From: Thiomicrorhabdus xiamenensis
GTDB taxonomy: Bacteria > Pseudomonadota > Gammaproteobacteria > Thiomicrospirales > Thiomicrospiraceae
Reading direction: 5' to 3'
DNA length: 64,000 nt
NCBI RefSeq assembly: GCF_013282625.1
Contig: NZ_CP054020.1
Span: 2,418,001 to 2,482,000, forward strand
Part shown: positions 7,110 through 54,289 of the stretch, piece after piece
Layout: each line of letters begins with the position of its first letter
Position numbering within the stretch: the first letter of the stretch is position 1
Notes under the pieces: generated by a model
Told to the model about the DNA's origin: nothing
The model's input: the letters and a program-made list of their open reading frames with translations, nothing else
Database searches by the model: none
Position numbers and translations under genes: made by a program

Positions 7110-8270
7110 TTACTGCGCAGGCAGCGTTGATGTACTCGGCTTCTCCAGATAAGGTTCAATCAAGATCTCCTCGCCTACCCAGCTCCAGCGGAATTCTCCG
7201 TTCACCTTCTGCCATTTCGGGTCGTCTTTCTGCGCCAGAGGCAAAGCCAGATGTTTCGACCACAACGGCAGATCAATCTCTTTAGCTTTCAATTCACCGG
7301 TAATATCCAGTGCCGCACCGAAACGTCCGCTGAAATTGGTCTGCAGTTTACCGTTCAACCCTTCAAGATTAAGCTGCTCCATCTGCACTCGTTTCTGAGT
7401 CAGGTCGATTTTCATCGCCGAACCGGACGTCGTCAGATGCGCTTGCGGTACCGCAAACTCTTCCGGCAACGAAACCGTGACAACGCCCTGCCAGTCGGAA
7501 AACAGATAATTCTGCAACTTCTGGTCCATCTCGAAATTCGACGTTATGCGAAAATTCACCGTTCGTGGCGACAAGCTATGGTGATACTGAAAATCGCTGC
7601 GAACTTCGAATGGTTTATCAGCCTGAAGATTCAGCGCAAACAGATTCACCTTCTCCAGGTTCATTCGATAATTTTCTTGCTGCTCACTGAGATTAATACA
7701 GCCGTCACTGATCACCAGACTCTGCAGACTCCATGCATCCGTGTCGCTCTGCGCCGAAGCATTCGGTGTAAAGAACGCATTCAGCGGCAATGGTTGCACG
7801 CCGTTAGCGGAAACTTGTTGCTGAGCAGGTAACAGCGGCAGCAGATTCGACAGAGCCGGAAGATCCGACCAGTTATCCTGACCGTCGACGTTTCGCTGAA
7901 GGTTCAGCGTGGGGCCGACCAATTCGACACTTAGAATTTCCAGTTTCTTATGCAACAGCAGAGACCACATCGATAGTTCGACTTCGACACTTTTCATGCT
8001 GAATTGTGGCACTTTGGGATCGAAGCCCGGCGGTTGCGCCAGAGAGGCTTTACCGACCGAAAAAACAAACGGCATTACCGAAACGTCAATACTTCCCTCG
8101 ATCTTGAAATTCCGACCGGTGTAGTCGGAGACCTCTTTTTCGATTTGTGGTTTATAACCGTTGAAATCGATAAAGTTGATCGCCCCCAAAAACGCCAGAA
8201 AGATTAACATCGGAATAATCGCCAGTATCAGTACCAGGCGTTTAAACCATTTCCTTGCCATTGCAGTCAT
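7110..8270 (-). CDS. AsmA-family inner-membrane/periplasmic protein
   Basis: 386 residues. An N-terminal membrane anchor (about 10-32, LVLILAIIPMLIFLAFLGAI) precedes the AsmA N-terminal signature FIDFNGYKPQIEKEV and YTGRNFKIEGSIDVSVMP. The family belongs to the bridge-like AsmA/TamB group implicated in outer-membrane lipid homeostasis. At 386 residues it is shorter than E. coli AsmA (617) and keeps mainly the chorein-like N-terminal half plus a short beta-rich tail; no frameshift is seen. GAGGG precedes the ATG. It follows the beta-barrel gene on the same strand but a terminator separates them. Confidence 0.85.
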   Translation of the reverse strand: MTAMARKWFKRLVLILAIIPMLIFLAFLGAINFIDFNGYKPQIEKEVSDYTGRNFKIEGSIDVSVMPFVFSVGKASLAQPPGFDPKVPQFSMKSVEVELSMWSLLLHKKLEILSVELVGPTLNLQRNVDGQDNWSDLPALSNLLPLLPAQQQVSANGVQPLPLNAFFTPNASAQSDTDAWSLQSLVISDGCINLSEQQENYRMNLEKVNLFALNLQADKPFEVRSDFQYHHSLSPRTVNFRITSNFEMDQKLQNYLFSDWQGVVTVSLPEEFAVPQAHLTTSGSAMKIDLTQKRVQMEQLNLEGLNGKLQTNFSGRFGAALDITGELKAKEIDLPLWSKHLALPLAQKDDPKWQKVNGEFRWSWVGEEILIEPYLEKPSTSTLPAQ

Positions 8271-38039: not shown

Positions 38040-39344
38040 TTGAAGGTTACAACGGCTGAACGATCAAAAACCAGAAAACCGCCCCAACAGTACTATTACC
38101 TGAGCCTTTTAGGTTTTCTGTTACTGCTTTGGGGCGCGACCCTTTTATGGTTCCATTTTGAGTTACAGATGCATTTCTCGCATCTGGCCGTCGGCATTTC
38201 AATGACCCTGTTTGCCGCGACCATTCCGGTTGTCTCCTGGCTGATCCCTTTCAATACGCTGCAGCAGCATCAGCGCCAGTGTCAGCTGGTCTGGTTTTCC
38301 CTGCTGGCCTGGCTGCTGCTTTTGAACAGTTTGCTGCTATATCACACCGGTGGAACGATCAACCCTCTGATATACCTTTTGCTGGCGCCTCTGGTTCTGG
38401 GAATGCTGATCCTGTCGACTTCATGGTTTATGAGTCTGGCGCTGCTGGCTTCGGCCTGCTACCTGTCACTGGGCTTTTTCTACGTGCCGATCATGTCTCT
38501 CAAGGTACAGAGCCTGCCGGCTTTTTTCGCCTGGTACCTGCACGGTTCCATGCTGGCCTTCATTCTTCTGGTCATGCTACTGGCGCTGCTGATTTTCCCT
38601 TTAAGGAAACGCCTCGAAGCGCAACGCTCGGCGCTGTCGCAACAACAGAACCGCGCCCTGCAAAATGAATATCTGCTTTCGGTGGCCAGTCTCGCCTCGG
38701 CCTCCGTTCACCAGCTCAGCACGCCTTTGAACACGCTTTCGCTATTGCAGGATCTGTTGAAAAACGAGATAACCAGCGATCAGGGCAAAGCCTATCTGCA
38801 AACGGCCAATCAGCAGCTTTCGGTATGCATCAACGCCCTGCACAGTCTGCGCAATAAAGCGGAAGAGGTTTCACAACCGGCCAACGCGGGAATTGAAATC
38901 GGCGCGCTTCTGAAAGATCTCCGTCAGGAATTCGCACTGCTTCATCCGCAAAGCGAACTGATGACATCCTCCGAAGTTGACTCGGGATTGCTGTATGTCG
39001 ATGCCGCTTTTAAACTGGCGATCATGAATCTGCTCGACAATGCCGCCCGCTACAGCCCGACTTTTATCCGCCTCAGGGTATCGAAGCACACCGGGAGATG
39101 GAAACTGCGCGTTGAAGATCAGGGTGGTGGCCTTGCGCAAAACGATCTCGAAGCGCTGGGACAAGGGTTAATGGAAGAGTATCATGGCACCGGTATGGGC
39201 GTATTCCTCAGCCGCATGATTATCGAACGTTTCGGCGGCACTCTGAATTTCCGCAACGGCGAAATTGAAGGGCAGCCGGGACTGATCGCCGAAGTATCGC
39301 TCCCGATTTCCGAAGCGCATGACAAGTTGCAAGACAACCCATAA
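38040..39344 (+). CDS. regB: Redox sensor histidine kinase RegB/PrrB
   Basis: 434 residues. Six transmembrane helices (about 22-185) contain HTGGTINPL at 102-110, matching the GGTxNP quinone-interacting motif of RegB. The phosphoacceptor box is ASVHQLSTPLNTL with His224, of the RegB/ActS LxHELGTPL type. The N-box NLLDNAARYSP and G-boxes follow. In alphaproteobacteria RegBA senses the redox state of the quinone pool and controls energy metabolism. The start is TTG at 38040 after GAGGG. It sits 11 bp upstream of regA. Confidence 0.9.
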   Translation: MKVTTAERSKTRKPPQQYYYLSLLGFLLLLWGATLLWFHFELQMHFSHLAVGISMTLFAATIPVVSWLIPFNTLQQHQRQCQLVWFSLLAWLLLLNSLLLYHTGGTINPLIYLLLAPLVLGMLILSTSWFMSLALLASACYLSLGFFYVPIMSLKVQSLPAFFAWYLHGSMLAFILLVMLLALLIFPLRKRLEAQRSALSQQQNRALQNEYLLSVASLASASVHQLSTPLNTLSLLQDLLKNEITSDQGKAYLQTANQQLSVCINALHSLRNKAEEVSQPANAGIEIGALLKDLRQEFALLHPQSELMTSSEVDSGLLYVDAAFKLAIMNLLDNAARYSPTFIRLRVSKHTGRWKLRVEDQGGGLAQNDLEALGQGLMEEYHGTGMGVFLSRMIIERFGGTLNFRNGEIEGQPGLIAEVSLPISEAHDKLQDNP

Positions 39345-39355
39345 GGACTTTACCG

Positions 39356-39910
39356 ATGACGCAACTGAATAACCTGTTACTGGTAGACGACGACCTGACG
39401 TTCCTGAATATCCTGCAACAGGCCTTCAAATATCGGGATATTACTACGGAACAGGCGCAGACACCCGAGCAGGCCGTACAGCTGATGCAACAGAAAGCGT
39501 TTGAATACGCCGTGGTTGATCTTAACATCGACGGTCAGAGCGGATTGAACCTGCTGAGTGAGCTGCTCAGCCTTCAACCGGACTGCAAAATTCTGATCCT
39601 GACCGGCTATGCCAGCGTGGCGACCGCGGTCGAGGCGATGCGTCTGGGCGCCGTCAACTATCTGTGCAAACCGGCCAATATCGACGATATTATTCAGGCC
39701 TTTTCACCCCAGGCCGACCATCAGGCATCGCCACCGTCCACCGAACAGGAAGAAACCTTTCAGGCGATGTCGGTCAAGCGTCTGGAATGGGAACATATCC
39801 AAAAAGTACTGATGGAAAACGACGGCAATATCAGCGCCACGGCACAGGCATTAAACATGCACCGTCGCACGCTACAAAGAAAACTTCAAAAACGGCCGGT
39901 CGACAAATAA
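39356..39910 (+). CDS. regA: Response regulator RegA/PrrA/ActR
   Basis: 184 residues. The receiver has an acidic pocket at Asp11-13, phosphoacceptor Asp55 in AVVDLNIDG, LILTGYAS and YLCKPAN. A Pro/Ser/Gln linker leads to a Fis-type helix-turn-helix with WEHIQKVLMENDGNISATAQALNMH followed by RRTLQRKLQKR, the nearly invariant RegA signature. It should regulate genes of respiration, carbon fixation and metal supply in answer to redox signals from RegB. The following gene encodes a copper chaperone with an FNR-like box. Confidence 0.94.
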   Translation: MTQLNNLLLVDDDLTFLNILQQAFKYRDITTEQAQTPEQAVQLMQQKAFEYAVVDLNIDGQSGLNLLSELLSLQPDCKILILTGYASVATAVEAMRLGAVNYLCKPANIDDIIQAFSPQADHQASPPSTEQEETFQAMSVKRLEWEHIQKVLMENDGNISATAQALNMHRRTLQRKLQKRPVDK

Positions 39911-39928: not shown

Positions 39929-40011
39929 TTTAACGCCATAACAGCATATCGCTTTCACCTCGGTTGCATTACTATTCTTCATGCTTTATTCCATTTCACA
40001 AAGGACTTCCA

Positions 40012-40941
40012 ATGAAACCGACTTCCCTATTAGCGATCGCTGCCGGCTGCCTGATCGGATGGCAAACCGCGCTGGCCGCAACCGTCGCCGAATCCGTTGA
40101 AATCAGCGATCCCTATGTCCGCATGGTACCGCCGACAGCGCCGGCTACAGCGGCCTTCATGACGATCAAAAACACCGATGGCAAAGACCATTCTGTCGTC
40201 TCGGCTAAAGGTTATATCAATAAGATCACCGAGTTACACACTCACATTCATGACAATGGCGTCATGCGTATGCGCCGAGTCGAAAAAATCGATCTGCCTG
40301 CCGGTCAAGTCACTGCATTACAGCCGGGCGGACTGCACATTATGCTGATCAACCTCAATGAACCGGTGAAGGACGGGCAAAAATATCAAATCGATCTTAC
40401 CTTTGAAGATGGCTCGACGAAAACCATCGAAGCACAGGGTCGTCCGATCGTTCCACCGCGAAACGGCATGGGCGCAGGCTCTAAAATGGGCATGGGATCG
40501 GGGCTGGGTATGAAATGCGGCGGCATGATGAAAGGACCGGGAGCCATGTCCGGCGCACAACTTTCCAACGGTCGCAATAGCAATCCGATGCGAATGGTCA
40601 TGCACGCCAACCCGGCTTTCCCGAACCTGACCGGTATTGCCGTTAAAAATGCTGCCGAGCTGAATCTGAGCGCTGAACAGGTATCGAAACTGAAAGCCTG
40701 GACAGCCGAGCACGGCGACAAAATGCAGAAAATGTTCCAACAGGTTGATGCTTTGGAAAAAGCGTTGATTCAAGATGCTCTGGCCGGGCAGCCTAAAGCG
40801 GAATTAATGGCCAAATTCGAAAAAACGCTGGCTTTGCGCAAGCAGATTGCCGCAACCAAAATCGATTGCCGCGACAATATGAAGAAAGTGCTGAACGCCG
40901 AACAGTTCGCCAAATTGGCGTCGATCTATCCGATGATGTAA
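40012..40941 (+). CDS. PCuAC periplasmic copper chaperone with Met-rich linker and Spy-like C-terminal domain
   Basis: 309 residues from ATG 40012 (AAAGGA upstream), signal peptide cut after ALAA. The N-terminal PCu(A)C domain has the complete copper motif His76-x10-Met87-x21-His109-x-Met111. Such proteins deliver Cu(I) to cytochrome oxidases. A Gly/Met-rich linker (about 145-185, with MGMGSGLGMKCGGMMKG) leads to an all-helical domain (about 205-309) with NLSAEQVSKLKAW and LNAEQFAKLASI, like the LTxxQ repeats of Spy/CpxP chaperones. This fusion is unusual. It lies downstream of regBA with a separate promoter region. Confidence 0.85.
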   Translation: MKPTSLLAIAAGCLIGWQTALAATVAESVEISDPYVRMVPPTAPATAAFMTIKNTDGKDHSVVSAKGYINKITELHTHIHDNGVMRMRRVEKIDLPAGQVTALQPGGLHIMLINLNEPVKDGQKYQIDLTFEDGSTKTIEAQGRPIVPPRNGMGAGSKMGMGSGLGMKCGGMMKGPGAMSGAQLSNGRNSNPMRMVMHANPAFPNLTGIAVKNAAELNLSAEQVSKLKAWTAEHGDKMQKMFQQVDALEKALIQDALAGQPKAELMAKFEKTLALRKQIAATKIDCRDNMKKVLNAEQFAKLASIYPMM

Positions 40942-42366: not shown

Positions 42367-42702
42367 TTATTTCTTGGTGGAATCCTCCGGAACATAAATC
42401 ATGCTGCCGTCTTCCAAGCGGTAAGCCACACCCGCTTTAGACCCTTTACCTTCACCCATCTGGCCGGTCGACTTATACTCTTTAAGCTCATCGCCCTCTT
42501 TGACCAGAATTTCCATATTCGGCTGCCCGGCATTTTTAATGACCATGACATCCTCGGCACTGTTAAACGGATTGATCGGGTTGCTCATTACGATAATCAG
42601 CAACACCGCGATCACGACCAGAAACAGATCCACCATATTGACCACGCTCAGAATCGGATCGTCTTCGTCTTCTTCAATAATATTCAAATCAATCTGATTC
42701 AT
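42367..42702 (-). CDS. DUF2149 protein, ExbD-like partner of the channel
   Basis: 111 residues. One transmembrane helix (about 24-40) is entered by NMVDLFLVV with an Asp at position 25, mirroring the proton-carrying Asp25 of ExbD. A polar periplasmic domain with DGSMIYVPED follows. DUF2149 genes are known neighbours of CobN-like and MotA/TolQ genes. GAGGCAGGG precedes the ATG and the channel stop is nine bases upstream, so the pair is cotranscribed. It probably forms, with the channel, a proton-driven motor that acts on periplasmic partners; that role is inferred. Confidence 0.85.
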   Translation of the reverse strand: MNQIDLNIIEEDEDDPILSVVNMVDLFLVVIAVLLIIVMSNPINPFNSAEDVMVIKNAGQPNMEILVKEGDELKEYKSTGQMGEGKGSKAGVAYRLEDGSMIYVPEDSTKK

Positions 42703-42711
42703 CGCCCTGCC

Positions 42712-43218
42712 TCAAGCCGCTTTTAATTTTGCTTCCGGCTGCGCGTTTTTGCTTTTAAGCAAAGCTTTAAGCTCTTCAAGCAACCAGCGGCGGCGCACCG
42801 ACAAGGTCATAAAAGTCATCGAAGCCGACAAGAGCGCGATAATAACCGCAGCAAAAGCGACCGTCAGTTGGCTGGCCACTTCCTGAAAGTTACCGTTGGC
42901 GACCGCCATCAGCGCCGGCCCCATCGGAATCATGGTCGCTACCAACCCAAGCATCGGCGCAATCCGGCTAACCAGACGCAAAGGCTCGATCTGTCTCAGC
43001 AATTGAAGCTCGACTTCCTGTTGATCGGCCTGAGGATTTTTCGCCCAAAATTGTTGTAAAGGCTGATGGGCATCCTTGCCCAAAGAGCGCATGAGCCACT
43101 CCCAGCCAAATCTTCCTAATTCGTAGAACGCAAACGCGAACATCAGTGCCAGAATAATCAGCACCGGCATTAAAAACAGACCGGCGATCTCCGCCATTGT
43201 CATTTCGATAAAATTCAT
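42712..43218 (-). CDS. MotA/TolQ/ExbB-family proton channel
   Basis: 168 residues from ATG 43218, chosen for the AGGAGAAACC upstream; a longer frame from 43335 would cross the promoter. Three helices: about 10-30, 92-115 (SRIAPMLGLVATMIPMGPAL, the conserved ExbB/TolQ pore region with Thr) and 128-150 (LTVAFAAVIIALLSASMTF). Small relative of ExbB (244 in E. coli), lacking the extra N-terminal part. First gene of the unit with the DUF2149 gene; expected to power a TonB-like or chelatase-linked periplasmic step. Confidence 0.9.
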   Translation of the reverse strand: MNFIEMTMAEIAGLFLMPVLIILALMFAFAFYELGRFGWEWLMRSLGKDAHQPLQQFWAKNPQADQQEVELQLLRQIEPLRLVSRIAPMLGLVATMIPMGPALMAVANGNFQEVASQLTVAFAAVIIALLSASMTFMTLSVRRRWLLEELKALLKSKNAQPEAKLKAA

Positions 43219-43298: not shown

Positions 43299-43327
43299 AT
43301 TTTAGAGGGCGGGAGACAAATAGACAA
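43299..43327 (-). promoter_or_regulatory. Promoter of the channel/DUF2149 operon
   Basis: On the minus strand: TTGTCT (43327-43322), 17-bp spacer, TAAAAT (43304-43299), about 81 bp before the channel ATG. The palindromic operator directly touches its -35. The receptor/cobN promoter has the same spacing and -10. Confidence 0.7.
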
Positions 43328-43344
43328 TGCGACAAATTGTCGCA
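43328..43344. promoter_or_regulatory. Palindromic operator, copy 1 (channel operon)
   Basis: TGCGACAAATTGTCGCA, a perfect 17-bp palindrome centred on one A:T pair, abutting the -35 of the channel/DUF2149 promoter. An identical copy lies before the TonB receptor gene at 52634-52650. The regulator is not identified; the sequence is unlike Fur, Zur, or E. coli NikR sites as I know them. Confidence 0.8.
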
Positions 43345-43565: not shown

Positions 43566-43871
43566 TTAGTATTTCGGATAGATCGTTAACAGCTGCTCAA
43601 CTTCTTCACGACAGCAACCCAGGTCAAATGCCAACTTAGCCAGTTGCGATGCACGTGACTGCAGGTTTTCCATGGTTTCGCCCTTCTCAATCGCCTCCTG
43701 CAACCAGGCAGAAAGTTTCGATAATTCACGCACCTTAGACTCCATCTCCTCGGCAGGCAAACCGCAACTGCAAAGGTTTTCTAAATTAATATCAAAACGT
43801 CGCAAGGCCTCATCCGAACTGATATTGGTATCCTTAACGATATTTTTAAAATGGCTGCTTCCCGGCATCAT
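43566..43871 (-). CDS. Small helical cysteine-containing protein, unknown
   Basis: 101 residues from ATG 43871 (AAGGTG upstream); an earlier TTG has no ribosome site. Cysteine pairs occur in NLCSCGLPAEEM and DLGCCREEVEQLL, near each end of a mostly helical, acidic protein, suggesting a metal or cluster site or a disulfide. No signal peptide. It has its own terminator. I do not recognise the family. It lies beside the chelatase-channel system but outside its palindrome-controlled unit. Confidence 0.65.
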   Translation of the reverse strand: MMPGSSHFKNIVKDTNISSDEALRRFDINLENLCSCGLPAEEMESKVRELSKLSAWLQEAIEKGETMENLQSRASQLAKLAFDLGCCREEVEQLLTIYPKY

Positions 43872-44434
43872 GCAAATCACCTTGTCTCTGGAATATTTAG
43901 GAAGAGTTATTTTAATCAACGTTCGACAAGCGATTCATAACAACAATTTATTGAAATCATTAGATTACAAGGAACCAATCTATAAATAGCAATCTGTTTA
44001 CATCCCATCGCTTATAAGCTTCTTTGACCTTTTCTTTCTTGGCTCTTCGCCAAGTTCGTCGTTTGCTTGTCCAAAGAAAAGGTCGAAAAGAAAAGACCCC
44101 CTCTACCGTTCGATTAAGGCTGGCTAGCGTTCAATTTTGCGCGGCTTAAACTAAATTTCTTTTTCAATGTTCATTTCTTGCTTGCCCAAGAAACGAACCA
44201 AAGAAAGGCACCCTCCGTTCCATTCGTGGGAGCCTTCTAACGCTTGAGTTTGGCGCGTCGTAACTCCCTCGCGGACACGCTCGGTCTAACAATCGCCGCG
44301 CTGATCAAACTCATCGCTAAGAATACTAACCACTCATTCCAAGAGGGAACCCATTATTTGGCTTTCAATTAGTCAAAAGAACGAAAAAACTCTATCGCCT
44401 GAAAAGTGTAAAAAAGGAATTACGCAGAAGTATC

Positions 44435-44720
44435 GCCTAAAGACCAAAATCCCCTTTGGAGTGCGCTTAGGCTGAGTTAGCGAGAATTTTGCATTAGCGG
44501 CGCTGGTGTTAGAGCTTGCGTAGCAAGCGAGTTGAAGCCGCGCAAAATTGAACGCTACTCAGCCTTAGCAAGTGGAACGGGGTGTCCTTTTTTGCCTACT
44601 TTGTTGATTGTCCAACAAAGTAGGGGGAAGCCTTTAGATGAAAACAAGGCAAAGTGAAGTTTTAAAAAGGCTTATCAATTAAAAAACCAAGTTTTAATTT
44701 TACTCTGACCCCGATTATTT
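44435..44720 (+). repeat. Repeat unit C of the array
   Basis: Contains AATTTTGC...GCGGC facing GCCGCGCAAAATT, the hairpin GCTTGC-GTA-GCAAGC, and the 12-bp stem CCTACTTTGTTG/CAACAAAGTAGG with loop ATTGTC (about 44596-44624). Confidence 0.85.
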
Positions 44721-44724
44721 CTGA

Positions 44725-45010
44725 GCCTAAAGAATCAAATCCCCTTTGGAGGGCGCTTAGGCTGAGTCAGCGAGAATTTTGCATTAGCGGCGCTGGTGTT
44801 AGAGCTTGCGTAGCAAGCGAGTTGAAGCCGCACAAAATTAAGCGCTACTCAGCCTTAGCAAGCGGAACGGGGTGTCCTTTTTTGCCTACTTTGTTGGACA
44901 ATCAACAAAGTAGGGGGAAGCCTTTAGATGAAAACAAGGCAAAGTGAAATTCTAAAAAGGCTTCTCAATTAAAAAACCAGATTTAATTTTACTCTGACCC
45001 CAATTATTTT
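44725..45010 (+). repeat. Repeat unit D of the array
   Basis: Near-identical to unit C, but the loop of the 12-bp stem reads GACAAT, the exact reverse complement of the loop in unit C. A few other substitutions occur (for example GAGGGCGC for GAGTGCGC at its left end). Confidence 0.85.
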
Positions 45011-45165
45011 CGTTTTTTTGGTTATTTTTTGCCGAACAGAAAACGAAGAACTCGGCGAAGAGCCGAGAAAAAGTAACGGGAAGCCTTTAGATGAAAATAA
45101 GGCAAAGTGAAATTCTACAAAGGCTTCTCAATCTATCAAAAAGCAATGGCTGACCCCTTTGCCTC

Positions 45166-45939
45166 TTAAATAACTCCACCAAATCCCTTCATTTCACCAA
45201 GCCAGATAGCTGATAAGACAGGAATTAGGTTTGTACCTATCATCAATCCTTCAGATTTTTTATATGTATGAAAAATACCTATTAGTTTAGGGAGACTCCA
45301 ATCATTTGACAATTCATGGCCATAAGGCCATAAAAAAATACCTCCACCACTAATTCCTTTAGGACTAATTGGATTAATTTTTTGTCCACTTTCTGGAGAC
45401 ACTGCTCTTTTCTTATGAAAGTGAATAATAATATTGGTTTCTTCAGATAATCCTAATTTTGTATAAACATCACTACTTGCAGCAACACCTCTGAAAGTAG
45501 CTGATTCAGATTCATATTTTCCTTTTCGTTTTTTCCCTTTACTAATCGGGTAGCCATAAACTGAGCAAACCCCAGATTCTAATGAAGACTTAATCAACTT
45601 AATTCTAGATTGTGGAAATGGCTTAAAGTGAATCATCATTGAACTAGCAAAATTAGTACTTAAACGATAATAAGCAATATCAATTGCATCATCTTGTCTT
45701 TTGACTTCTGGAGGCAAGTCAATATAAGCCATATATCCATCAATAGGCTCTATTCCAAAACGAGTAGGAATCATTAATTCCCCAGAATGAGAATTATCAG
45801 TAACATGAGCAGCGGTATACAAAAAAGGCTTTCCCTGAAAATCAATAAATATGCCCGTTCCAATCTGCTGGATTTTGCCAGAGTACTTCTCTTTAGCAAA
45901 GATAGGAACAACTGCATCTTTAGGGTCATTAGCAAACAT
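45166..45939 (-). CDS. Trypsin-like serine protease, AT-rich, probably acquired
   Basis: 257 residues of a S1/trypsin-like fold. The catalytic His is in LYTAAHVTD, the Asp in AIDIAYYRL, and the nucleophile Ser in KGISGGGIFLW (GxSGG). There is no signal peptide, so it should act in the cytoplasm. Base composition is markedly AT-richer than its neighbours and codon use differs, indicating horizontal acquisition. AAAGGTATAAA precedes the ATG. It sits between the cobN terminator and the repeat array, splitting the receptor/chelatase unit from the channel unit. Similar stand-alone proteases occur in defence-type islands, but no partner is seen here. Confidence 0.75.
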   Translation of the reverse strand: MFANDPKDAVVPIFAKEKYSGKIQQIGTGIFIDFQGKPFLYTAAHVTDNSHSGELMIPTRFGIEPIDGYMAYIDLPPEVKRQDDAIDIAYYRLSTNFASSMMIHFKPFPQSRIKLIKSSLESGVCSVYGYPISKGKKRKGKYESESATFRGVAASSDVYTKLGLSEETNIIIHFHKKRAVSPESGQKINPISPKGISGGGIFLWPYGHELSNDWSLPKLIGIFHTYKKSEGLMIGTNLIPVLSAIWLGEMKGFGGVI

Positions 45940-46029: not shown

Positions 46030-49000
46030 TTATCGTCTTAAATAGACTTGACGCAAAGCGCCTGCCGCGAGCAGAGCGACGAGCAGTAGCCACCATTTCG
46101 GTTGGTCGATTGGCTGTTGCTCTTCGGGCTGTTGTTCTTGCATCACCTGCCCTTGCACGGTTTCCAGTTCTTCGCTTTGCTCGGTTTGTTCCGAGTTTTC
46201 AGACTCCGGTTGCTCCATGGCTTCAGCAGGCGTTGCTTCCGCCGCAGAAGTTGCCATATCCGGTGCGGGAGCGGCGCTTAGGCCGTAACCCGCCGCCAGC
46301 TCGGCGACATAGGCTTTAAAAGTCTGGTTATCGGTATGCACATCATACTTCTCGGCCATTTCCTGATAGACCTGCACCAGTTCCTTTTTGGTCTCCTCAC
46401 TCGCTTTCCAATAGTCTTTGCGAATCGCTTCCAGCATACGCTCGGCAATTTGCGCCATGGCGGTTGGATTGGACTTCTCGAACCACTCTTTCATATCCAG
46501 TTCGTATTTGTCCTTGATATAAACTTCGTGGAACTCCTGCCACTGATCGTCGCGCACCACATTGCGATCCATTACCTGCCAGCCCCAGAAGTTGTTGATG
46601 GTATTCAACATCTGCAAGGTTCCGGCATAGCCCTCTTTCTGCATCTCCTTGACCCAATTCGGATGCTGATAAACGGCACGCAATTCGGTCGCTAGGAAAC
46701 GCTCGGCCGTTTGCAGCTTGGCCTTTTTCGGGTCGCGCATATTGGAGATATACAACTGCGGCGCTTCGCCTTCCAGGTGTTGCAGAGCCAGTGAAATCCC
46801 GCCGAGATATTCAAACGGATGATCGGTATCCAGCAGACCGCGCAGGTTCGAGGAACGTGAGAAGACCGCCGCCGATGTGCCTTTTAACTGCTCGGCATAG
46901 ACATTGACCGGCTTGCCGTCTTTAGTGGTCAGCTTTCTGCTCCACTGCGAGGTATCCGGACCGTAAGCCCAAGACATGCGCGACAGATACAGCTCAGCCA
47001 GTTTGCCGTCGTCTTCTTCCCACTTGTCCGAAGCCAGCGTGGCATCCGGCAATTTGGTGCCGTAGTCGCCGCTTTCGGTGCCGAAGACACGCGTTAGCGC
47101 GAAGTTCTTGGCCGCTTTTGGCTCGACACCCTCTTCAAGCAGAGCCTTTTCAATACGCAAGGTATTGGCACGGATAAAGTTATCCTCTTCACCTTCATTA
47201 AGACTGGCAAGCATGACAATCGCTTCGTTAAAGCGCTCCATCACATTCGGGAACTGGTCGCGATACAGACCAGTTAACGAGATGACCGTGTCGATACGCG
47301 GACGCCCCAACTCTTTGAGCGGAATCACTTCCAGACCGGTAACGCGCCCGCCTCGATCCCAGATCGGCTTGACGCCCATCGCATAAAACACCTGTGCTTC
47401 CAGCATCCCAAGATGACGCAGAGTTTCGGTACTCCACATCGAGAATGTCAGCTTTTTCGGGAATTCGCCGCGCGTCGTCTGATGACTTTCGATCAGTTGC
47501 TGCATCGCTTGAACACCTGCTTCATAGGCGGCTTTGGTCGGAATACGCGACGGATCGAAACCGTACATATTGCGCCCGGTCGGAATCGCATCCGGATTCC
47601 GGATCGGATCGCCTCCATAAGACGGATCAACCCATTTCGCAGCCAATCCTGCTAAGATTCCATCCGTTTCCGACTCGGCACGCATATTACGCGCATGTTT
47701 AATGCCCTGCTTGACCGCCGCAACCAATTCCGGCTTAGCGGCATCAACGGAACTTAAAGGCTGCTCGTCAATAATATGCGATCGCACAAATTTGAAAGGC
47801 GCCGTCTCTTTCAGCAACTTATAGTCGGTTCGAAACAGTTGACGACTGTTTTCGACACCAAGCGGCTTCATAATGTCATCACCGAGCATCAGCATAATAT
47901 TCAACGCCAGATGATCCTGCTCGGCGGTTTCGCCGAACGTATGCAACCCCAAAGGCTGCATCGCCGAACCGAGATCTTCCAGATAGTCTTCGATATCGCG
48001 CAGGAAGTTGTCGAAGTTCGCGTGCAGATCGGCCACCTTCCAACCCATATCTTCCGGAATCTTCATTTTCACCGCCTGTTCGATAATCAGGTCTTTTGCG
48101 TTGGATTTGACCAGACCCTCGTCAAGCGAGATATATTCGCGGATAGCGTCGTTAATGGCGACAAAATCGTCCGACAGGCCTGCCGGCGAGAAAGGCGGTA
48201 CCTGATAGCTAATGATAACGCCGCGCCCGCGACGTTTCACGTGAAGCGCTTCGCCGATATTATCAACGATATACGGATAAACCACCGGCGTATTGCCGAC
48301 CGCCAGATTCGGATAATCGTAAGCCCACAGACCGCGTTCTTTGCCCGGATGCCATTCCTGAGTCCCGTGGGTTCCGAAATGGATAATCGCGTCGGTGCCG
48401 TACACTTCGCGCAGCCACAGATAGGCCGCCGCGTAATAATGATTCATCGGTTTTTTAGTGTCGTGGAAAAGATCCTTATCCTGTTCGGCGGTCGAGCCGC
48501 CGCGGTTCGGCTGCGGCATAATAATCAGGTTGCCCAGTTTCAGACGCGGAATGACAAACCCTTTCTGCCCCTGATAATCGACCACCCAGCCGTTTGTCGC
48601 GGCATCGCCCCAATGGCCGTTCATATCATCCTGAATCGACTGCGGCAGCGTCGCAAACCATTGGCGATAGGTTTCCAGCGGCATAAAGTCCCACAGCTCG
48701 GTTTTCATCAGATTTTCGACTTCGTTGGGTCTATAGGCCGGACGCAACATGGTGGCCACCGCATCAATCATTTCCTGCTCACCGACATTTTCCAGCGCAT
48801 AACCTTGCGCCTTAAGATCGGCAACCAGCTTCTCGATCGAGCGCGGTACATTCATATTCGAAGCGCCCTGATTCTTCTCGCCCGGAGGATGGTTCCAGAA
48901 CAGCAGCGCCAGCTTTTTATCGTTATTAGCTTTGCGTTGCAGCTTGGCCAGATTAATCGCCTTGCCGATCAGCAAGTCCATCTGTTCCGGCAACGGAATC

Positions 49001-50268
49001 ATTTCACCGTCCGGATTGACCGTCAACACCACCGGATCCTGAATCCCGATATATTCGGCATTGGTCAGAGTAAACGGCAGTCGGAAAGAGCTGACACCGG
49101 CAAGGTCCTGCATATAGACTTCGCGACCGCCGTCGCGGTAGTGCAGAATATTGAGCACCGGAATCCCCTGGGCCTGATAGCGCAGCTTACGCCCTTCGAC
49201 ATCACCACCAAGGAAGGTATTGACCAACATCACCTGCGGCAAGACCTTGCCCTGCCAGGTAATCAACGGCTCATTGAATTTATACGGACGCCCTGTTTTC
49301 GGATTCGGGAAAGGATTATCATCGCTGCCTGGCTTGGCTTGCGCGCCCCAGCGTGATGCAGATGGTCTTCCGGAAGCATTCGCCGGACGGCCAGATGGAC
49401 GACCGGAGATTACCTGCTGATCACGCACCGGTTTAGCCGATTTCACCGCCGCTTCGCGCGCCACGGACTGCTGCGATTTAAAGGTGTTCTGAGTGACACG
49501 GGCGGCTCGATAGAAAAACAGCGGCATGGCACCACGCTTTTCGATTTCGGCAATTGTCTCATCCAGATGGCGCGTCTGGCCGTCGGCGATATAGCTCGAC
49601 GTAGTTTCCATGGCAATGACCAGCCCCTCGGTACCGTCCCTGCCCGCACGCTGATTCCACCACCGGATATAAGTTTCCAGATCGGCGAAGATCTGTTGCT
49701 GATACGCAGGATGGTAAATACCTCCGTTCGGCATTTCGATCGGCAGAGGCACGGCGTCAAGATCCGTACCGTTGATAATCGCCGCCGCATAGTCAAACAG
49801 CAGGCGGTGATTTTCGCTCATACCGCCCAGATAATAGCCGTACACCTGCTGACCGACTTCGGTCGGCAGATTGACCGTTTTCAGGCGCAGCGGACGGCTC
49901 ATACGGTTGATATGTACGATCGGCACCTGCAAAGCGCGCAGACTGTCACCGGAGATCGAATCCACTTTCGCTTGATCGTCGGTACGCGGCGCATCGACAA
50001 TTACCAGTCCGGCATTTTGCAACGCCTTGTGCACACCATTCTTACCGCCGGAACCGTCTTTGGCATCCACCTGCACCCAGTTCAGTTGCACGCCCTGTTG
50101 TGCGGCCGCTTCGCTCAGCAGCTTAAACTTTTTGCTGAGCACAAAATCGGTGGAAACAATCGCCACCTTGGGCTCTTTTTTATCAAGGCTTTCCGACGCA
50201 AAAACGGGCGCCGTCAAAAATGACAGACACCCGCCGATCAGAAACACCCAGTTCATCAGGCGTTGCAT
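46030..50268 (-). CDS. Exported, membrane-anchored CobN-family chelatase
   Basis: 1412 residues of the CobN/BchH large-subunit chelatase family. The central signature is HFGTHGTQEWHPGKERG (His630 first) followed by VVYPYIVDNIGEALHVKRR. Classical CobN is cytoplasmic and inserts cobalt with the AAA+ pair CobS/CobT. Here there is an N-terminal signal peptide (LMNWVFLIGGCLSFLTAPVFA) and, after a Gln/Glu-rich linker, a C-terminal helix WWLLLVALLAAGALRQVYLRR, so it should be a periplasmic protein anchored in the inner membrane. A GRPS-repeat insert occurs at about 285-330. It is 15 bp downstream of the TonB receptor. ATG 50268 is preferred; a GTG one codon earlier is possible. Best comparison: HmuS-type CobN-like proteins of haem-uptake loci. 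Confidence 0.9.
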   Translation of the reverse strand: MQRLMNWVFLIGGCLSFLTAPVFASESLDKKEPKVAIVSTDFVLSKKFKLLSEAAAQQGVQLNWVQVDAKDGSGGKNGVHKALQNAGLVIVDAPRTDDQAKVDSISGDSLRALQVPIVHINRMSRPLRLKTVNLPTEVGQQVYGYYLGGMSENHRLLFDYAAAIINGTDLDAVPLPIEMPNGGIYHPAYQQQIFADLETYIRWWNQRAGRDGTEGLVIAMETTSSYIADGQTRHLDETIAEIEKRGAMPLFFYRAARVTQNTFKSQQSVAREAAVKSAKPVRDQQVISGRPSGRPANASGRPSASRWGAQAKPGSDDNPFPNPKTGRPYKFNEPLITWQGKVLPQVMLVNTFLGGDVEGRKLRYQAQGIPVLNILHYRDGGREVYMQDLAGVSSFRLPFTLTNAEYIGIQDPVVLTVNPDGEMIPLPEQMDLLIGKAINLAKLQRKANNDKKLALLFWNHPPGEKNQGASNMNVPRSIEKLVADLKAQGYALENVGEQEMIDAVATMLRPAYRPNEVENLMKTELWDFMPLETYRQWFATLPQSIQDDMNGHWGDAATNGWVVDYQGQKGFVIPRLKLGNLIIMPQPNRGGSTAEQDKDLFHDTKKPMNHYYAAAYLWLREVYGTDAIIHFGTHGTQEWHPGKERGLWAYDYPNLAVGNTPVVYPYIVDNIGEALHVKRRGRGVIISYQVPPFSPAGLSDDFVAINDAIREYISLDEGLVKSNAKDLIIEQAVKMKIPEDMGWKVADLHANFDNFLRDIEDYLEDLGSAMQPLGLHTFGETAEQDHLALNIMLMLGDDIMKPLGVENSRQLFRTDYKLLKETAPFKFVRSHIIDEQPLSSVDAAKPELVAAVKQGIKHARNMRAESETDGILAGLAAKWVDPSYGGDPIRNPDAIPTGRNMYGFDPSRIPTKAAYEAGVQAMQQLIESHQTTRGEFPKKLTFSMWSTETLRHLGMLEAQVFYAMGVKPIWDRGGRVTGLEVIPLKELGRPRIDTVISLTGLYRDQFPNVMERFNEAIVMLASLNEGEEDNFIRANTLRIEKALLEEGVEPKAAKNFALTRVFGTESGDYGTKLPDATLASDKWEEDDGKLAELYLSRMSWAYGPDTSQWSRKLTTKDGKPVNVYAEQLKGTSAAVFSRSSNLRGLLDTDHPFEYLGGISLALQHLEGEAPQLYISNMRDPKKAKLQTAERFLATELRAVYQHPNWVKEMQKEGYAGTLQMLNTINNFWGWQVMDRNVVRDDQWQEFHEVYIKDKYELDMKEWFEKSNPTAMAQIAERMLEAIRKDYWKASEETKKELVQVYQEMAEKYDVHTDNQTFKAYVAELAAGYGLSAAPAPDMATSAAEATPAEAMEQPESENSEQTEQSEELETVQGQVMQEQQPEEQQPIDQPKWWLLLVALLAAGALRQVYLRR

Positions 50269-50283
50269 CACTTTACTCTCTCC

Positions 50284-52560
50284 TTAGAATTTCACTTTCA
50301 GACCTGCCATCCAGACACGGCCCGGATCGACGTTGATCGACAGGTCTTCGGCGTCATACACGCCGTCGGAATTGCTGTCGTAGGTACCGCGAACAATCGA
50401 GTAGAACTGATCATTAAACACATTGTCCACCTTCAGGAACAGGGTCATCAGCCCTTGCGTTCCGCCGACAATCTGCGCTTTGGTCTGATATTCCAGACCT
50501 AAATTCAGCAGTGTACGCGCCGGCATTTTTTCCTGATTAATTTCATCGGCATAACTCTCGCCGCGGTAATCGATTTCCGTGGTAAAGGTTACTTTGCTTG
50601 TCGGATACCAGTTAATGCGCAAGTTCGCCATATGCTGCGGCGTACGCGGCACATAATTGCCGCTGTTGTCGTAAGGCTTAAAGTAAACGCAGTCGTCAGG
50701 GGTACAGGTCTGTGTCCCGGCACGGGTGGTGTAGGTACCGGTCGTCAACTCCTCTTCCGAATTCACCACCACACCGTATGGATTACCCAAAGCCAGATAG
50801 AAATCGTCATAGCTGCCGAACTTACTGATCAGATAGGTATAGGCGAAATCAAACGAGAAATTATGTTTTTTCTCGGTTTGCAGCGCCAGTTCAAAACCTT
50901 TGGAAGTTGTTTGCCCGATATTGTCATAGTAGGACTCGACATCATCCAGCTGATCGACATTCGAGTTGACGTACTGGCCGGTGGAATTGGTAATGAAATC
51001 CCGTCGGTCGATATAGAACACGGAACTGTTCATATGGGTATTCCAACCGAACAGATTCAGCTCGGAGCGCAGCCCCAGCTCATAGTTAAAGGTCGTTTCA
51101 GGCTCCAAATCGGCATTGGTACTAAGTTCGCTCAGGCTCGGCGCACGGAAACCGGTGGAAACCGCGCCATACAGAGAGGTTTTTTCGGACAGATTCTGAT
51201 CCGCACCGAAGCGCCAGGAGTGAACATTGAACTCATTACTGTCATAGCTGTCTTCCAGACGATCATGTCCGTCCAGCTCGATGCGGTCAAAACGGTAGTT
51301 CCCGGTCAGCGTCGTGTTTTCGGTCGCTCTGAATTTCGCCTCGCCGTAGACCGCTTTGGTAATCTCTTCGCGGTAAGAGTCCGACTTTATCGTCCCGGCG
51401 GTAATCGTTTCGCCGCGCGAATAGGTACGATAGTCCTCTTTCACCGTGGTCTGCTCGTCAAAGGTATTTTTCTTCAGTTCAACCCCACCCATCAAGGCAA
51501 ATTCACCGAAAGAGTCACGAAGCTCCAGTTTCAGGCCGCGCTGCACCTGCTCGTAATCGTTCAGATTGGCATACATATCGACCTGATCGTCACCGACCGG
51601 ATTGCCGTCGCCGTCGTATTTAATCGGTGCCGACCAGAAATCGGTAATGTCTTTGTACTGATAGGCGACCGCCATAAAGTTACCGCTGTCCGAAAAGTCG
51701 TTCGAATAGGTCAGATTCAGTCGCGACAGATCGACATTGAACATTCGGGTGTAGCCGCGTCCGGCCTCTTCCCCTTCCGGATCCTCTTCGGCGGCGGTGA
51801 CCCCGCGTACAGAGCCGTCTCGATCACGGAAGCGCTGCGCATCTTCAAAACCGAACGTCAACTCGCTATGATCGTTCAGGTAATATTCCAGCGCACCGGA
51901 GACCGCTTCAGCATCGCGTTGCGACAAAGCATAGAAGCCGTCGTTATGACGATCGGTTACCTGCACATGACCGGCAAAATCCTCTTCGGCAACGCCCGCT
52001 TTGACCAGAGTACGCGTATAACCGTAAGACCCGAGATCCGCTTCAAGCGTCACACCGGCATGCGCAGCGCCGCGCTTGGTGGTAATAATCACCGCACCGG
52101 CCAGCGCATCTTCACCGAACAGATAGGAAGCGCCTCCTTTGACGACGCGGATCGATTCAATATTATCCAGATCGATATTCACCTTACCGGTACGCTCGAA
52201 AACCGGAACACCGTCGATCACAATCGCCACACCCGGCTTCTCGCCCATATAACGCTGATTATCCACACCGCGGATTTTGATCTTGATGCCATCGCCTTCA
52301 CCGGCCAGATCAGCGGTAACTCCGGGAATGGAACGCAGTACCTCGATAATATTGGTCGCGTGCTTTGCTTCTACCGCTTCACCGCTGATCACCGTCGTAC
52401 TGGCCGGAATATCGGCATCCGATTCAAATCGGTCTTCGATGGTCGAAGAAGAAATCGTTACTTTGGAAAGTTCGCTGCTGTCGTCGGCGTAACCGAATTG
52501 AGTGAAGCTCAGCAATAAAGCCGAAATTAATGCATTGTAGTGAAAAGGTTTAGGATGCAT
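50284..52560 (-). CDS. TonB-dependent outer-membrane receptor
   Basis: 758 residues. Signal peptide cut after FGYA, then a TonB-box-like SKVTISSS, the plug domain (about 45-165, with VLRSIPGVTADL and the IRGVDN, IDGVPV, VVKGGASYLFGEDALAGAV motifs) and a 22-strand barrel ending in WMAGLKVKF. In the barrel GFRAPSLSEL and NADLEPETTFNYELG resemble the FRAP/NPDL boxes shared by haem and cobalamin receptors; a defining His between them is not evident. The ligand is therefore unresolved: haem, a corrinoid or another metal-tetrapyrrole. First gene of the operon with the CobN-like gene. Confidence 0.93.
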   Translation of the reverse strand: MHPKPFHYNALISALLLSFTQFGYADDSSELSKVTISSSTIEDRFESDADIPASTTVISGEAVEAKHATNIIEVLRSIPGVTADLAGEGDGIKIKIRGVDNQRYMGEKPGVAIVIDGVPVFERTGKVNIDLDNIESIRVVKGGASYLFGEDALAGAVIITTKRGAAHAGVTLEADLGSYGYTRTLVKAGVAEEDFAGHVQVTDRHNDGFYALSQRDAEAVSGALEYYLNDHSELTFGFEDAQRFRDRDGSVRGVTAAEEDPEGEEAGRGYTRMFNVDLSRLNLTYSNDFSDSGNFMAVAYQYKDITDFWSAPIKYDGDGNPVGDDQVDMYANLNDYEQVQRGLKLELRDSFGEFALMGGVELKKNTFDEQTTVKEDYRTYSRGETITAGTIKSDSYREEITKAVYGEAKFRATENTTLTGNYRFDRIELDGHDRLEDSYDSNEFNVHSWRFGADQNLSEKTSLYGAVSTGFRAPSLSELSTNADLEPETTFNYELGLRSELNLFGWNTHMNSSVFYIDRRDFITNSTGQYVNSNVDQLDDVESYYDNIGQTTSKGFELALQTEKKHNFSFDFAYTYLISKFGSYDDFYLALGNPYGVVVNSEEELTTGTYTTRAGTQTCTPDDCVYFKPYDNSGNYVPRTPQHMANLRINWYPTSKVTFTTEIDYRGESYADEINQEKMPARTLLNLGLEYQTKAQIVGGTQGLMTLFLKVDNVFNDQFYSIVRGTYDSNSDGVYDAEDLSINVDPGRVWMAGLKVKF

Positions 52561-52604: not shown

Positions 52605-52633
52605 ATTTTAGGGGCAAGCCAGCAACGAAACAA
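52605..52633 (-). promoter_or_regulatory. Promoter of the receptor-cobN operon
   Basis: On the minus strand: TTGTTT (52633-52628), 17-bp spacer, TAAAAT (52610-52605), about 45 bp before the receptor ATG. The palindrome abuts the -35 exactly as at the channel operon. No cobalamin riboswitch box is present in the leader. Confidence 0.7.
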
Positions 52634-52650
52634 TGCGACAAATTGTCGCA
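52634..52650. promoter_or_regulatory. Palindromic operator, copy 2 (receptor-cobN operon)
   Basis: TGCGACAAATTGTCGCA, identical over 17 bp to the copy at 43328-43344; the identity extends through ACAA on one side and C on the other. It directly adjoins the -35 of the receptor promoter, where an activator or repressor could act on RNA polymerase. Confidence 0.8.
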
Positions 52651-53071: not shown

Positions 53072-53764
53072 TTAGAGGTGCTGCAACATCCCTAGGATGA
53101 CTTTGGCGGAATGGGTCGCCGCCTGCTCAAGATACTGCTCGAAAGTGACCTTGTTCTCTTTGCCGGCAATATCCGATAGAGAGCGGATAATTACAAACGG
53201 TTTCCCGAAGCTGTGGCACACCTGAGCAACGGCTGCTGCTTCCATTTCACAGGCAATCATTTCCGGAAAGGCTTCACGTGTACTGGCAACATCGTCAGGA
53301 TGATGCATAAAACGGTCGCCGGTCGCAATCAAGCCATGCATATGCACCACTTCGCCCAAATCTTCAATCGAAGCCTGAGCCGCCTTGACCAGTTTGTCTT
53401 CCGGCAGAAAATGCGTCGGCATTCCCGGAACCTGTCCCTTGTCATAGCCGAAAGGCGTCACATCGACATCGTGATGACAGACCGAACTGCTGATGACCAC
53501 ATCGCCGACATTCAAATCAACATGAAAGCCACCAGCGGAACCGGTATTGATAACAAAATCCGGATCATACAATTGCAGCAGGATCGTGCTGCTGATTGCG
53601 GCGTTGACCTTGCCGATACCGGAACGCAGCAATGCAACCTCGATACCGTCGATCTTACCCAGATAATATTCGAAACCGGCGTGGGTCTCGGTCTGCATAT
53701 CGGTCAAATTGCTGCGCAGCAATGCAACCTCTTCTTCCATCGCCCCGATAATGGCAACTTTCAT
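53072..53764 (-). CDS. mtn: 5'-methylthioadenosine/S-adenosylhomocysteine nucleosidase
   Basis: Cleaves adenine from methylthioadenosine and S-adenosylhomocysteine in the activated-methyl cycle. 230 residues with IIGAMEEEV (Glu12), VNTGSAGGF-like NTGSAGGF, the substrate Glu in CEMEAAAVAQV, and the catalytic Asp in RSLSDIAG. The gene follows luxS by three bases. The two enzymes act consecutively: the nucleosidase makes S-ribosylhomocysteine, the LuxS substrate. Confidence 0.97.
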   Translation of the reverse strand: MKVAIIGAMEEEVALLRSNLTDMQTETHAGFEYYLGKIDGIEVALLRSGIGKVNAAISSTILLQLYDPDFVINTGSAGGFHVDLNVGDVVISSSVCHHDVDVTPFGYDKGQVPGMPTHFLPEDKLVKAAQASIEDLGEVVHMHGLIATGDRFMHHPDDVASTREAFPEMIACEMEAAAVAQVCHSFGKPFVIIRSLSDIAGKENKVTFEQYLEQAATHSAKVILGMLQHL

Positions 53765-53767
53765 CGC

Positions 53768-54289
53768 TCAGACCTCATTACCCAGCTTGCGCAGAGTTTC
53801 TTCGTCCATCTTAAGCTCTTCGTTTTTATTCACGCCGATGCCATGCTCAAGAATGTCCTGCGCGATCTCTTTGGCTTCTTCCAGAGAGTGCATCATATAG
53901 GTACCGCACTGATATTCGTTCAGTTCGGGAATATCTTCCATACGCTCAACATTCAAGACATCCTGCATGGACTCCGACCATGCTTTGGCCACACGTTCTT
54001 CGCTCGGCGCGCCCATCAGGCTCATATAGAAACCGGTACGGCAGCCCATAGGCGACACGTCGATAATTTCCACACCGTCACCGTTCAGGTGATCACGCAT
54101 AAAGCCGGCAAACAGATGCTCCAGAGTATGAATCCCCTTCTCGCCCATCATGCTTTCGTTCGGTTTATTGAAACGCAGATCGAAAACCGTAATGGTATCG
54201 CCGGACGGAGAAGTCATGGTCTTGGCGACACGCACCGCAGGCGCATTCATAATCGTATGATCAACAGTAAAACTATCTAGTAGAGGCAT
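53768..54289 (-). CDS. luxS: S-ribosylhomocysteine lyase LuxS
   Basis: Splits S-ribosylhomocysteine into homocysteine and the autoinducer-2 precursor DPD. 173 residues, with metal ligands His54 and His58 in HTLEH (Glu57 catalytic) and Cys128 in YQCGTY; the catalytic Cys83 is in [16 protein letters not shown] precedes the ATG. Cotranscribed with mtn, recycling the products of SAM-dependent methylation. A quorum-sensing role is not implied by the gene alone. Confidence 0.97.

Follow-up and report, generated by a model that had tools for sequence, protein, structure and literature searches.

What protein, if any, ties together a metal uptake system whose genes lie in two separate operons? In the sulfur-oxidizing bacterium Thiomicrorhabdus xiamenensis, the window analyzed here, i.e. 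the whole stretch of 64 000 nucleotides, contains a channel gene with a DUF2149 gene and, apart from these, a TonB-dependent receptor (TBDR) gene with a CobN-type chelatase gene, and each pair is preceded by the same 17-bp palindrome. The features that bear on this question are the following (window positions).

38040-39344, plus strand: regB-like sensor histidine kinase gene (NF033792, 128 bits, cut-off 350; HATPase_c)
39356-39910, plus strand: regA-like response regulator gene, its product being the proposed binder of the palindrome (NF033791, 167 bits, cut-off 250; Fis-type HTH)
39964-40941, plus strand: gene for a PCu(A)C copper chaperone, next after regBA and co-oriented with it (PF04314, 4e-35)
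42367-42702, minus strand: DUF2149 gene (PF09919, 1e-28)
42712-43218, minus strand: MotA/TolQ/ExbB-type channel gene, the first after operator 1 (PF01618, 2e-6)
43299-43304, minus strand: -10 TAAAAT, 23 bp downstream of operator 1 (sequence and promoter comparison)
43322-43327, minus strand: -35-like TTGTCT abutting operator 1 (sequence)
43328-43344, no strand assigned: operator 1, palindrome TGCGACAAATTGTCGCA, proposed RegA box of the ExbB-DUF2149 promoter (exact match)
46030-50271, minus strand: CobN/HmuS-type chelatase gene (PF02514, 4e-285; best PDB match HmuS 9d26, E = 1.7e-125)
50284-52560, minus strand: TBDR gene, the first after operator 2 (PF00593 and PF07715)
52605-52610, minus strand: -10 TAAAAT, 23 bp downstream of operator 2 (sequence)
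52628-52633, minus strand: -35-like TTGTTT abutting operator 2 (sequence)
52634-52650, no strand assigned: operator 2, identical palindrome TGCGACAAATTGTCGCA at the TBDR-CobN promoter (exact match)

The initial annotation described two identical, perfect palindromes, each abutting a TTGTCT or TTGTTT hexamer that is followed by TAAAAT on the same strand, and considered a chance origin of the two copies unlikely. All these elements were found again at the positions listed, with a 17-bp spacer between the -35 and the -10 in both modules and with the 17-mer built of two 8-bp arms around a single central base. The judgment on chance holds as well: with up to three mismatches, there are 4 matches in the window (the two sites, each on both strands) vs 0.29 expected, and 1 of 100 shuffles reached 4 matches at this tolerance, whereas the real sites are exact. 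A composite operator-plus-promoter pattern matched only the two modules in the window (the backward control matched one), and a matrix scan of the window produced, besides these modules, one weak match, at 29793, and no strong site ahead of regB or the PCu(A)C gene. The flanks of the two modules are 36% identical over the upstream 50 bp, and 20 of the 51 downstream positions beyond the -10 agree, which argues against a recent duplication of the modules.

The two halves of the system are separated by unrelated ORFs (43566-45939; 117 and 257 aa, without a Pfam match), and the corresponding gap in another genome of the family (G031) holds, among others, a different ORF of 368 aa, so that this gap may be a hot spot for insertions. 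Immediately beyond the promoter region of the TBDR gene are LuxS and a gene of the phosphorylase superfamily (53072-54289).

In the entire genome of this organism (G000; one contig of 2 594 948 bases), the palindrome occurs with up to two mismatches in three places, namely the two modules and a third site with 1 mismatch (G000:C1:2374232), 87 kb away, ahead of an OprC-like TonB receptor gene. Seven more places appear at 3 mismatches, and these are not above chance because, with up to 3 mismatches and both strands counted, the true pattern yields 13 rows vs 17 for the backward control; no scatter of copies away from promoters was found in this genome-wide scan. The third site precedes a -10 TACAAT at a gap of 22 bp and, beyond it, the TonB-dependent receptor gene, the product of which contains the strings CPNHM (CxxxM, residue 103) and HEM (HxM, residue 312). 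These look similar to the CxxxM-HxM copper site of the copper importer OprC/NosA (PMC8610252). Among the NCBIfam models, the TonB-hemin match of the third-site receptor (133 bits) is slightly above the TonB-copper match (TIGR01778, 124 bits; cut-off 472 bits), and both are below the cut-off; site-linked receptors in two other genomes score 429 (G032) and 419 (G033) bits with TIGR01778, likewise under its 472 bits. The TBDR of the window itself contains no CxxxM, and its best NCBIfam matches are siderophore and haem types, all below the cut-off. Directly upstream of the third site and its receptor gene, two overlapping frames (L003 311-1251 in G000:C1) resemble, by eye, transposase ORFs.

At orthologous promoters in related genomes, the palindrome is 99% (TBDR-CobN, 8 promoters), 98% (ExbB, 5) and 96% (OprC-like receptor, 3) identical, while the upstream 60 bp are 27–32% identical, i.e. 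at the background level (27% for ExbB, 28% for TBDR-CobN); G026, which is nearly identical to G000, was left out of these counts. The ExbB-DUF2149 pair is detached from CobN in six genomes of the family (G000, G013, G014, G024, G026 and G031), and both halves carry the site in all six, including G014, where they are on different contigs. In three genomes, TBDR, CobN, ExbB and DUF2149 are contiguous, and no site separates CobN from ExbB; the site is ahead of the receptor in two of these (G015 and G021) and absent there in the third (G023). The presence of a separate site at each half, wherever the halves are detached, supports the proposal of the initial annotation that the two operons are one regulon. 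Judging by the sites, this regulon is wider than the chelatase system and also includes the distant OprC-like receptor gene; a chelatase-type metal uptake system and a likely copper importer thus appear to be under common control.

The core of the palindrome, GCGAC-N5-GTCGC, conforms to GCGNC-N5-GNCGC, the form of the RegA box. All 15 positions of the 15-mer core, read on either strand, agree with the Rhodobacter capsulatus RegA motif SSGNVRDNHYSNCSS; the RegR motif GNGRCRTTNNGNCGC is matched at 14 of 15 positions on one strand and at 13 on its complement, and the PrrA motif YSCGGC(5)GWCRMA at all positions but one (PMC5506826). It is also nearly equal to a site identified by ChIP for R. capsulatus RegA at cydA, GTGACAATTTGTCCC (PMC5359404). 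RegA motifs in the literature are degenerate, and for At. ferrooxidans RegA, the search for a motif was unsuccessful (PMC5506826).

A candidate binder is encoded within the window. The RegA-like protein, of 184 aa, combines a receiver domain (PF00072) with a Fis-type HTH (PF02954); it matches PDB 3rqi over residues 5-182 (E = 5e-50), and its HTH matches 1umq, the photosynthetic apparatus regulatory protein (E = 2e-10). The equivalog cut-off of NF033791 is missed, yet this model is the best NCBIfam match, with the next one at 82 bits; because the scores of both proteins are below the NCBIfam cut-offs, the pair is filed here as being of the wider RegA/RegB kind and not as the curated equivalog. 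The HTH recognition segment MHRRTLQRKL is present in 65 of the 67 aligned RegA rows, several of which are repeats of one genome (the exceptions are L123, with one residue different, and L043, which is cut off). Group 1 RegA proteins carry next to the HTH a cysteine linked to copper and disulfide formation (PMC9147068); inspection of the translation revealed no such cysteine in the window protein. The regB-like gene is listed with a TTG start, its true start being uncertain; by eye, its product displays GGTINPL (resembling the quinone motif GGxxNPF), VHQLSTPLNT as a candidate H-box and, as a candidate redox cysteine, the one in LSVCINALHSL.

The distribution of the site follows that of RegA. 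In the family set of 37 genomes (own, same-genus and same-family members of a 58-genome scan; RegA called at E<=1e-25, the site at <=1 mismatch), the site was found in 13 of the 14 RegA-positive genomes and in none of the 23 RegA-negative ones (Fisher p = 4e-9, kinship ignored). The exception, G023, has RegA and a site only at 2 mismatches, a level at which 4 of the 23 RegA-negative genomes also match; 8 of these 23 are <90% complete. RegA was the one regulator family scored for co-occurrence. On the scale of the class (274 gammaproteobacteria, 90 of them RegA-positive, with <=12 first-look candidates scored per genome), the perfect form TGCGACANNNTGTCGCA is present in 32 genomes, 28 of which have RegA, i.e. 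in 28/90 RegA-positive vs 4/184 RegA-negative genomes (p = 1.3e-11, or 9e-11 without the two Thiomicrorhabdus genomes, in both cases with kinship ignored). The backward control of TGCGACANNNTGTCGCA occurs in 5/90 and 5/184 genomes, respectively, so that the site is as rare as the control in RegA-negative genomes and commoner than the control in RegA-positive ones; the strict site is absent from 62 of the 90 RegA-positive genomes. A laxer search of the RegA-negative, site-bearing genomes detected the C-terminal half of RegA, at 64% identity, in G230, and no full RegA in G121, G164 and G198; despite its RegA-negative status, G121 has its site directed towards a TonB receptor gene, and the -10 follows at a gap of 23.

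The sites are also often found close to regBA. Of the 39 sites outside the family, 8 are no more than 5 kb away from regA; among the 28 class loci, there are 5 in which a regB-like gene begins immediately past the site. The site is directly ahead of regA in G032, and in G024 and G013, it is located between regB and a divergent MauG-type gene, a putative one in G013, where it is read in two ORFs. One RegA-positive genome contains five perfect palindromes within approximately 9 kb (G209:C18:21211-30251) and a sixth one elsewhere.

The initial annotation envisaged a dedicated regulator, and this part of the proposal is unsupported because the site has the RegA/PrrA box form, a RegB/RegA-like pair is encoded in the window and the presence of the site tracks RegA. 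From the sites, their promoter geometry (see below), conservation, co-occurrence with RegA, proximity to regBA and targets, we infer, with a probability of roughly 0.8, that RegA, encoded together with its sensor at 38040-39910, binds the 17-mer as a near-perfect site of high affinity.

With hand-made weights and a search range of 10-40 bp downstream of the site, the best -10 is at a gap of 22-24 bp in 31 of the 36 promoter-facing sites (26/28 in the family, 5/8 in other taxa), although such counts overstate the evidence because orthologous promoters are not independent. On the opposite side, used as a control, this gap was found in 5 of 35 cases, two of which are the divergent regB side of G013 and G024. 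Three additional family sites, the G023 site facing the lipoprotein gene (gap 23) and those at the G021 and G030 receptors (37-38), bring the count to 32/39; the misses are both G020 sites (37-38, or 23 in a narrower scan), G021, G030, two Nitrosomonas receptor sites and one CobN site of an ammonia oxidizer. Left out of the geometry count were the regB-facing rows, the L049 site at 7312 and the weak sites in L060, L063, L075, L077, L078 and L085. The 37-38 bp group consists of OprC-like receptors and one G020 gene; the receptors concerned (L205 5059 in G021, L206 8982 in G030 and L100 6369 in G020) could have promoters of a second type, or else the -10 may be called wrongly there.

Directly after the palindrome, TTGT is invariant at the CobN and ExbB promoters (5 ExbB promoters compared), and other letters are found there at the G000 and G015 receptors, the MauG-type genes and the G033 receptor, with the 22-23 bp spacing held. 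The conservation of the spacing where the -35 is dispensable suggests an activator. With the -10 set at -12 to -7, the palindrome comes to lie at approximately -52 to -36, with its center near -44; a RegA dimer bound there would be positioned against the -35 region and would most likely activate sigma-70 promoters, with the -10 usually 22-24 bp downstream. Overall, activation by RegA at these promoters is considered probable. In G031 and G014, a perfect site with a full promoter is also found just after the DUF2149 stop (L093 4767 and L098 1889, respectively), approximately 0.5 kb before a RimK-type ATP-grasp gene and with no same-strand ORF of at least 60 aa in between; the possible target is a small gene or an RNA.

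It is considerably less probable that RegA binds these sites as a repressor, or as an anti-repressor that competes with another regulator, even though R. capsulatus RegA both activates and represses (PMC5359404) and a usable TTGT-type -35 abuts many of the sites. Against this stands the lack of a TTG-like -35 at the G000 OprC-like receptor, the MauG-type genes and the G033 receptor, where the spacing is kept all the same; furthermore, At. ferrooxidans RegA binds mostly upstream of the -35, without competition with RNA polymerase (PMC5506826), and feo expression is RegA-dependent in Methylomonas DH-1 (PMC13274454).

An unrecognized, dedicated metal-responsive repressor (Fur/Zur, MarR, GntR or CopY-like) that would occupy the palindrome and block RNA polymerase appears improbable. 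Odd-length palindromes are common among metal repressors, and two sites in G020 have a Fur-family gene next to them. In addition, zinc depletion induces the homologous TBDR-CobN-DUF2149 operon of Pseudomonas aeruginosa, for which a Zur site is predicted (PMC4542158). Nevertheless, the site tracks RegA in the family and in the class, often near regBA, and it abuts the core promoter instead of overlapping it, the -10 distance being kept without an evident -35, which fits activation. A Zur consensus was absent from the window at <=1 mismatch; across the window and the 47 CobN loci, a search at this threshold returned a single match, in L068, a locus that also has RegA-like sites. Finally, an origin of the two copies by chance or by a recent duplication, with no regulatory role, is rejected almost with certainty: two copies alone would be weak evidence, but the sites are kept in relatives with diverged flanks, recur at non-homologous promoters and in other taxa, and have unrelated flanks in the own genome.

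If RegA is the binder, the targets give an indication of what the regulon does. Among the 14 family genomes with RegA, 10 have the site ahead of an OprC-like/copper-type receptor gene, which stands by itself or follows a MauG-type gene (G000, G013, G015, G020, G021, G024, G026, G030, G032 and G033), 9 have it ahead of TBDR-CobN (G000, G011, where the contig holds just the start of the receptor gene, G013, G014, G015, G021, G024, G026 and G031) and 6 ahead of the detached ExbB-DUF2149 pair. The site is also found before an MbnP-domain lipoprotein gene beside PCu(A)C in G031, and the 2-mismatch site of G023 lies between a gene for a similar, putative lipoprotein of 542 aa and PCu(A)C; no site with <=3 mismatches was detected near the CobN operon of G023, which has RegA. 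MbnP and MauG-type proteins presumably have roles in copper handling, as the family names suggest.

Beyond the family, a TonB receptor gene adjoins the site in 8 of the 28 class loci, with TonB-copper as the best NCBIfam match in 3, all of these below the cut-off and on partial sequences. Sites of at least 20 bits are found in 10 of the 47 CobN loci, which represent Thiomicrorhabdus (three), Nitrosomonas (four, two from one strain), Methylotenera (one), a MAG named as an ammonia oxidizer and another MAG (L078). In Nitrosomonas, the ammonia oxidizer and Methylotenera, all RegA-positive, these sites are ahead of CobN or receptor genes. RegA is present in 23 of the 46 CobN-locus genomes, including every genome with a site of at least 20 bits except L078; in 15 RegA-positive genomes, the fetched stretch contains no site of this strength. 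Two betaproteobacterial loci (L070 and L080) bring together PCu(A)C, the OprC-like receptor, TBDR, CobN, ExbB and DUF2149, without a site.

Several loci show further arrangements. In G024, a second CobN paralogue, approximately 50% identical, comes behind a separate TonB receptor gene with a separate site (L091 11857-18087). In G013, a site is followed by a CirA-like TonB receptor gene and then by a PepSY_TM gene (L088 6411-10480), the neighbor reported for CrtA copper transporters (PMC12914433). In G020, a Fur-family gene is just upstream of two sites and a pair of genes for 481- and 411-aa proteins, neither with a family in Pfam, and then comes a small ORF with a CxxCH motif (L100 9821-10595). 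A Nitrosomonas site is located between CobN and a divergent run that resembles, by eye, a multicopper-oxidase/cytochrome c cluster (L061 9559); among the papers listed for Nitrosomonas cobN under copper or iron limitation, none contains both Nitrosomonas and cobN.

The CobN-type protein of the window, which has three relatives at 83-96% identity, all from Thiomicrorhabdus species, has the haem de-chelatase HmuS (9d26) as its nearest solved structure. The marks of HmuS are HFG(T/A)HG, LSLDHxxEFMGG and a methionine-rich insertion (PMC12583661). HFGTHG and DHPFEYLGG of the window protein align to HmuS 9d26, where CobN 7c6o has DDYFQ; HFG(T/A)HG and DHxxE are thus present, the full LSLDHxxEFMGG string is kept only in part, and the insertion is absent, with approximately 50 residues between the aligned blocks vs approximately 214 in HmuS.

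The regulon would, then, encompass TBDR-CobN, the detached ExbB-DUF2149 and the OprC-like receptor 87 kb away. RegB would presumably read the quinone or redox state, and the import of respiratory metal cofactors would therefore go up when the electron flow backs up; the imported metals would be copper and, probably, a second metal or a metal chelate taken up via the HmuS-like CobN system. Copper could, tentatively, be the cargo of the CobN system, too, given the company this system keeps. An extended version of this idea, of which we are similarly doubtful, is that beta- and gammaproteobacterial TBDR-CobN-ExbB-DUF2149 systems serve copper acquisition, with the periplasmic HmuS-like enzyme stripping copper from an imported chelate, and that RegBA reads a backed-up quinone pool, indirectly sensing failing heme-copper oxidases, and induces these systems along with an OprC-type importer, PCu(A)C and proteins of the MbnP/MauG type. 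If so, one chassis would handle iron (Hmu), zinc (PA1922-1925) or copper according to the regulator wired in. More generally, a strict palindrome with a usual promoter spacing would allow some of the RegA regulon to be read directly from the sequence, a redox sensor is predicted to be tied to outer-membrane uptake of copper and chelated metals, and the widespread, uncharacterized proteobacterial CobN/DUF2149 systems gain a testable regulator and a candidate metal. No report of a link between RegA and outer-membrane uptake of copper or chelated metals was found among the matches listed, which covered titles and the beginnings of abstracts, with subscription journals mostly outside.

Among the known systems, RegB/RegA (PrrBA, ActSR, RoxSR) shares with the pair described here the HTH recognition segment, the operator form and its place upstream of the -35, as well as a copper-chaperone gene next to regBA and, in several genomes, sites near regBA. 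The differences are a strict 17-bp palindrome with the usual promoter spacing, few predicted high-affinity targets, mainly in outer-membrane metal uptake, PCu(A)C and not SenC beside regBA in the window, and the missing HTH-adjacent cysteine of group 1. The third-site receptor contains strings of the CxxxM and HxM form that resemble the site of OprC/NosA (PMC8610252) and differs in its low TIGR01778 score, with TonB-hemin ahead. The hmuYRSTUV locus of Bacteroidota has the gene set of TBDR, CobN-type protein, MotA/TolQ/ExbB channel and DUF2149 in common with the window (PMC12583661, PMC10434189), and the catalytic His pair and Glu of HmuS are kept in the CobN-type protein, which lacks, however, the methionine-rich insertion; Hmu is iron-responsive (PMC10434189), whereas the window set is linked to RegA. 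The P. aeruginosa PA1922-PA1925 genes are a matching four-gene set (PMC4542158, PMC9431628), unlike the window system in being controlled by Zur and zinc (PMC4542158). A recent precedent is Methylomonas sp. DH-1, where RegBA controls iron uptake and RegA drives a TBDR, the tonB operon and feo (PMC13274454), i.e. metal uptake as proposed here; the systems in that case are those for iron, and the word 'motif' is absent from the text, whereas in Thiomicrorhabdus, an OprC-like receptor and a CobN-type system are joined by a defined palindrome.
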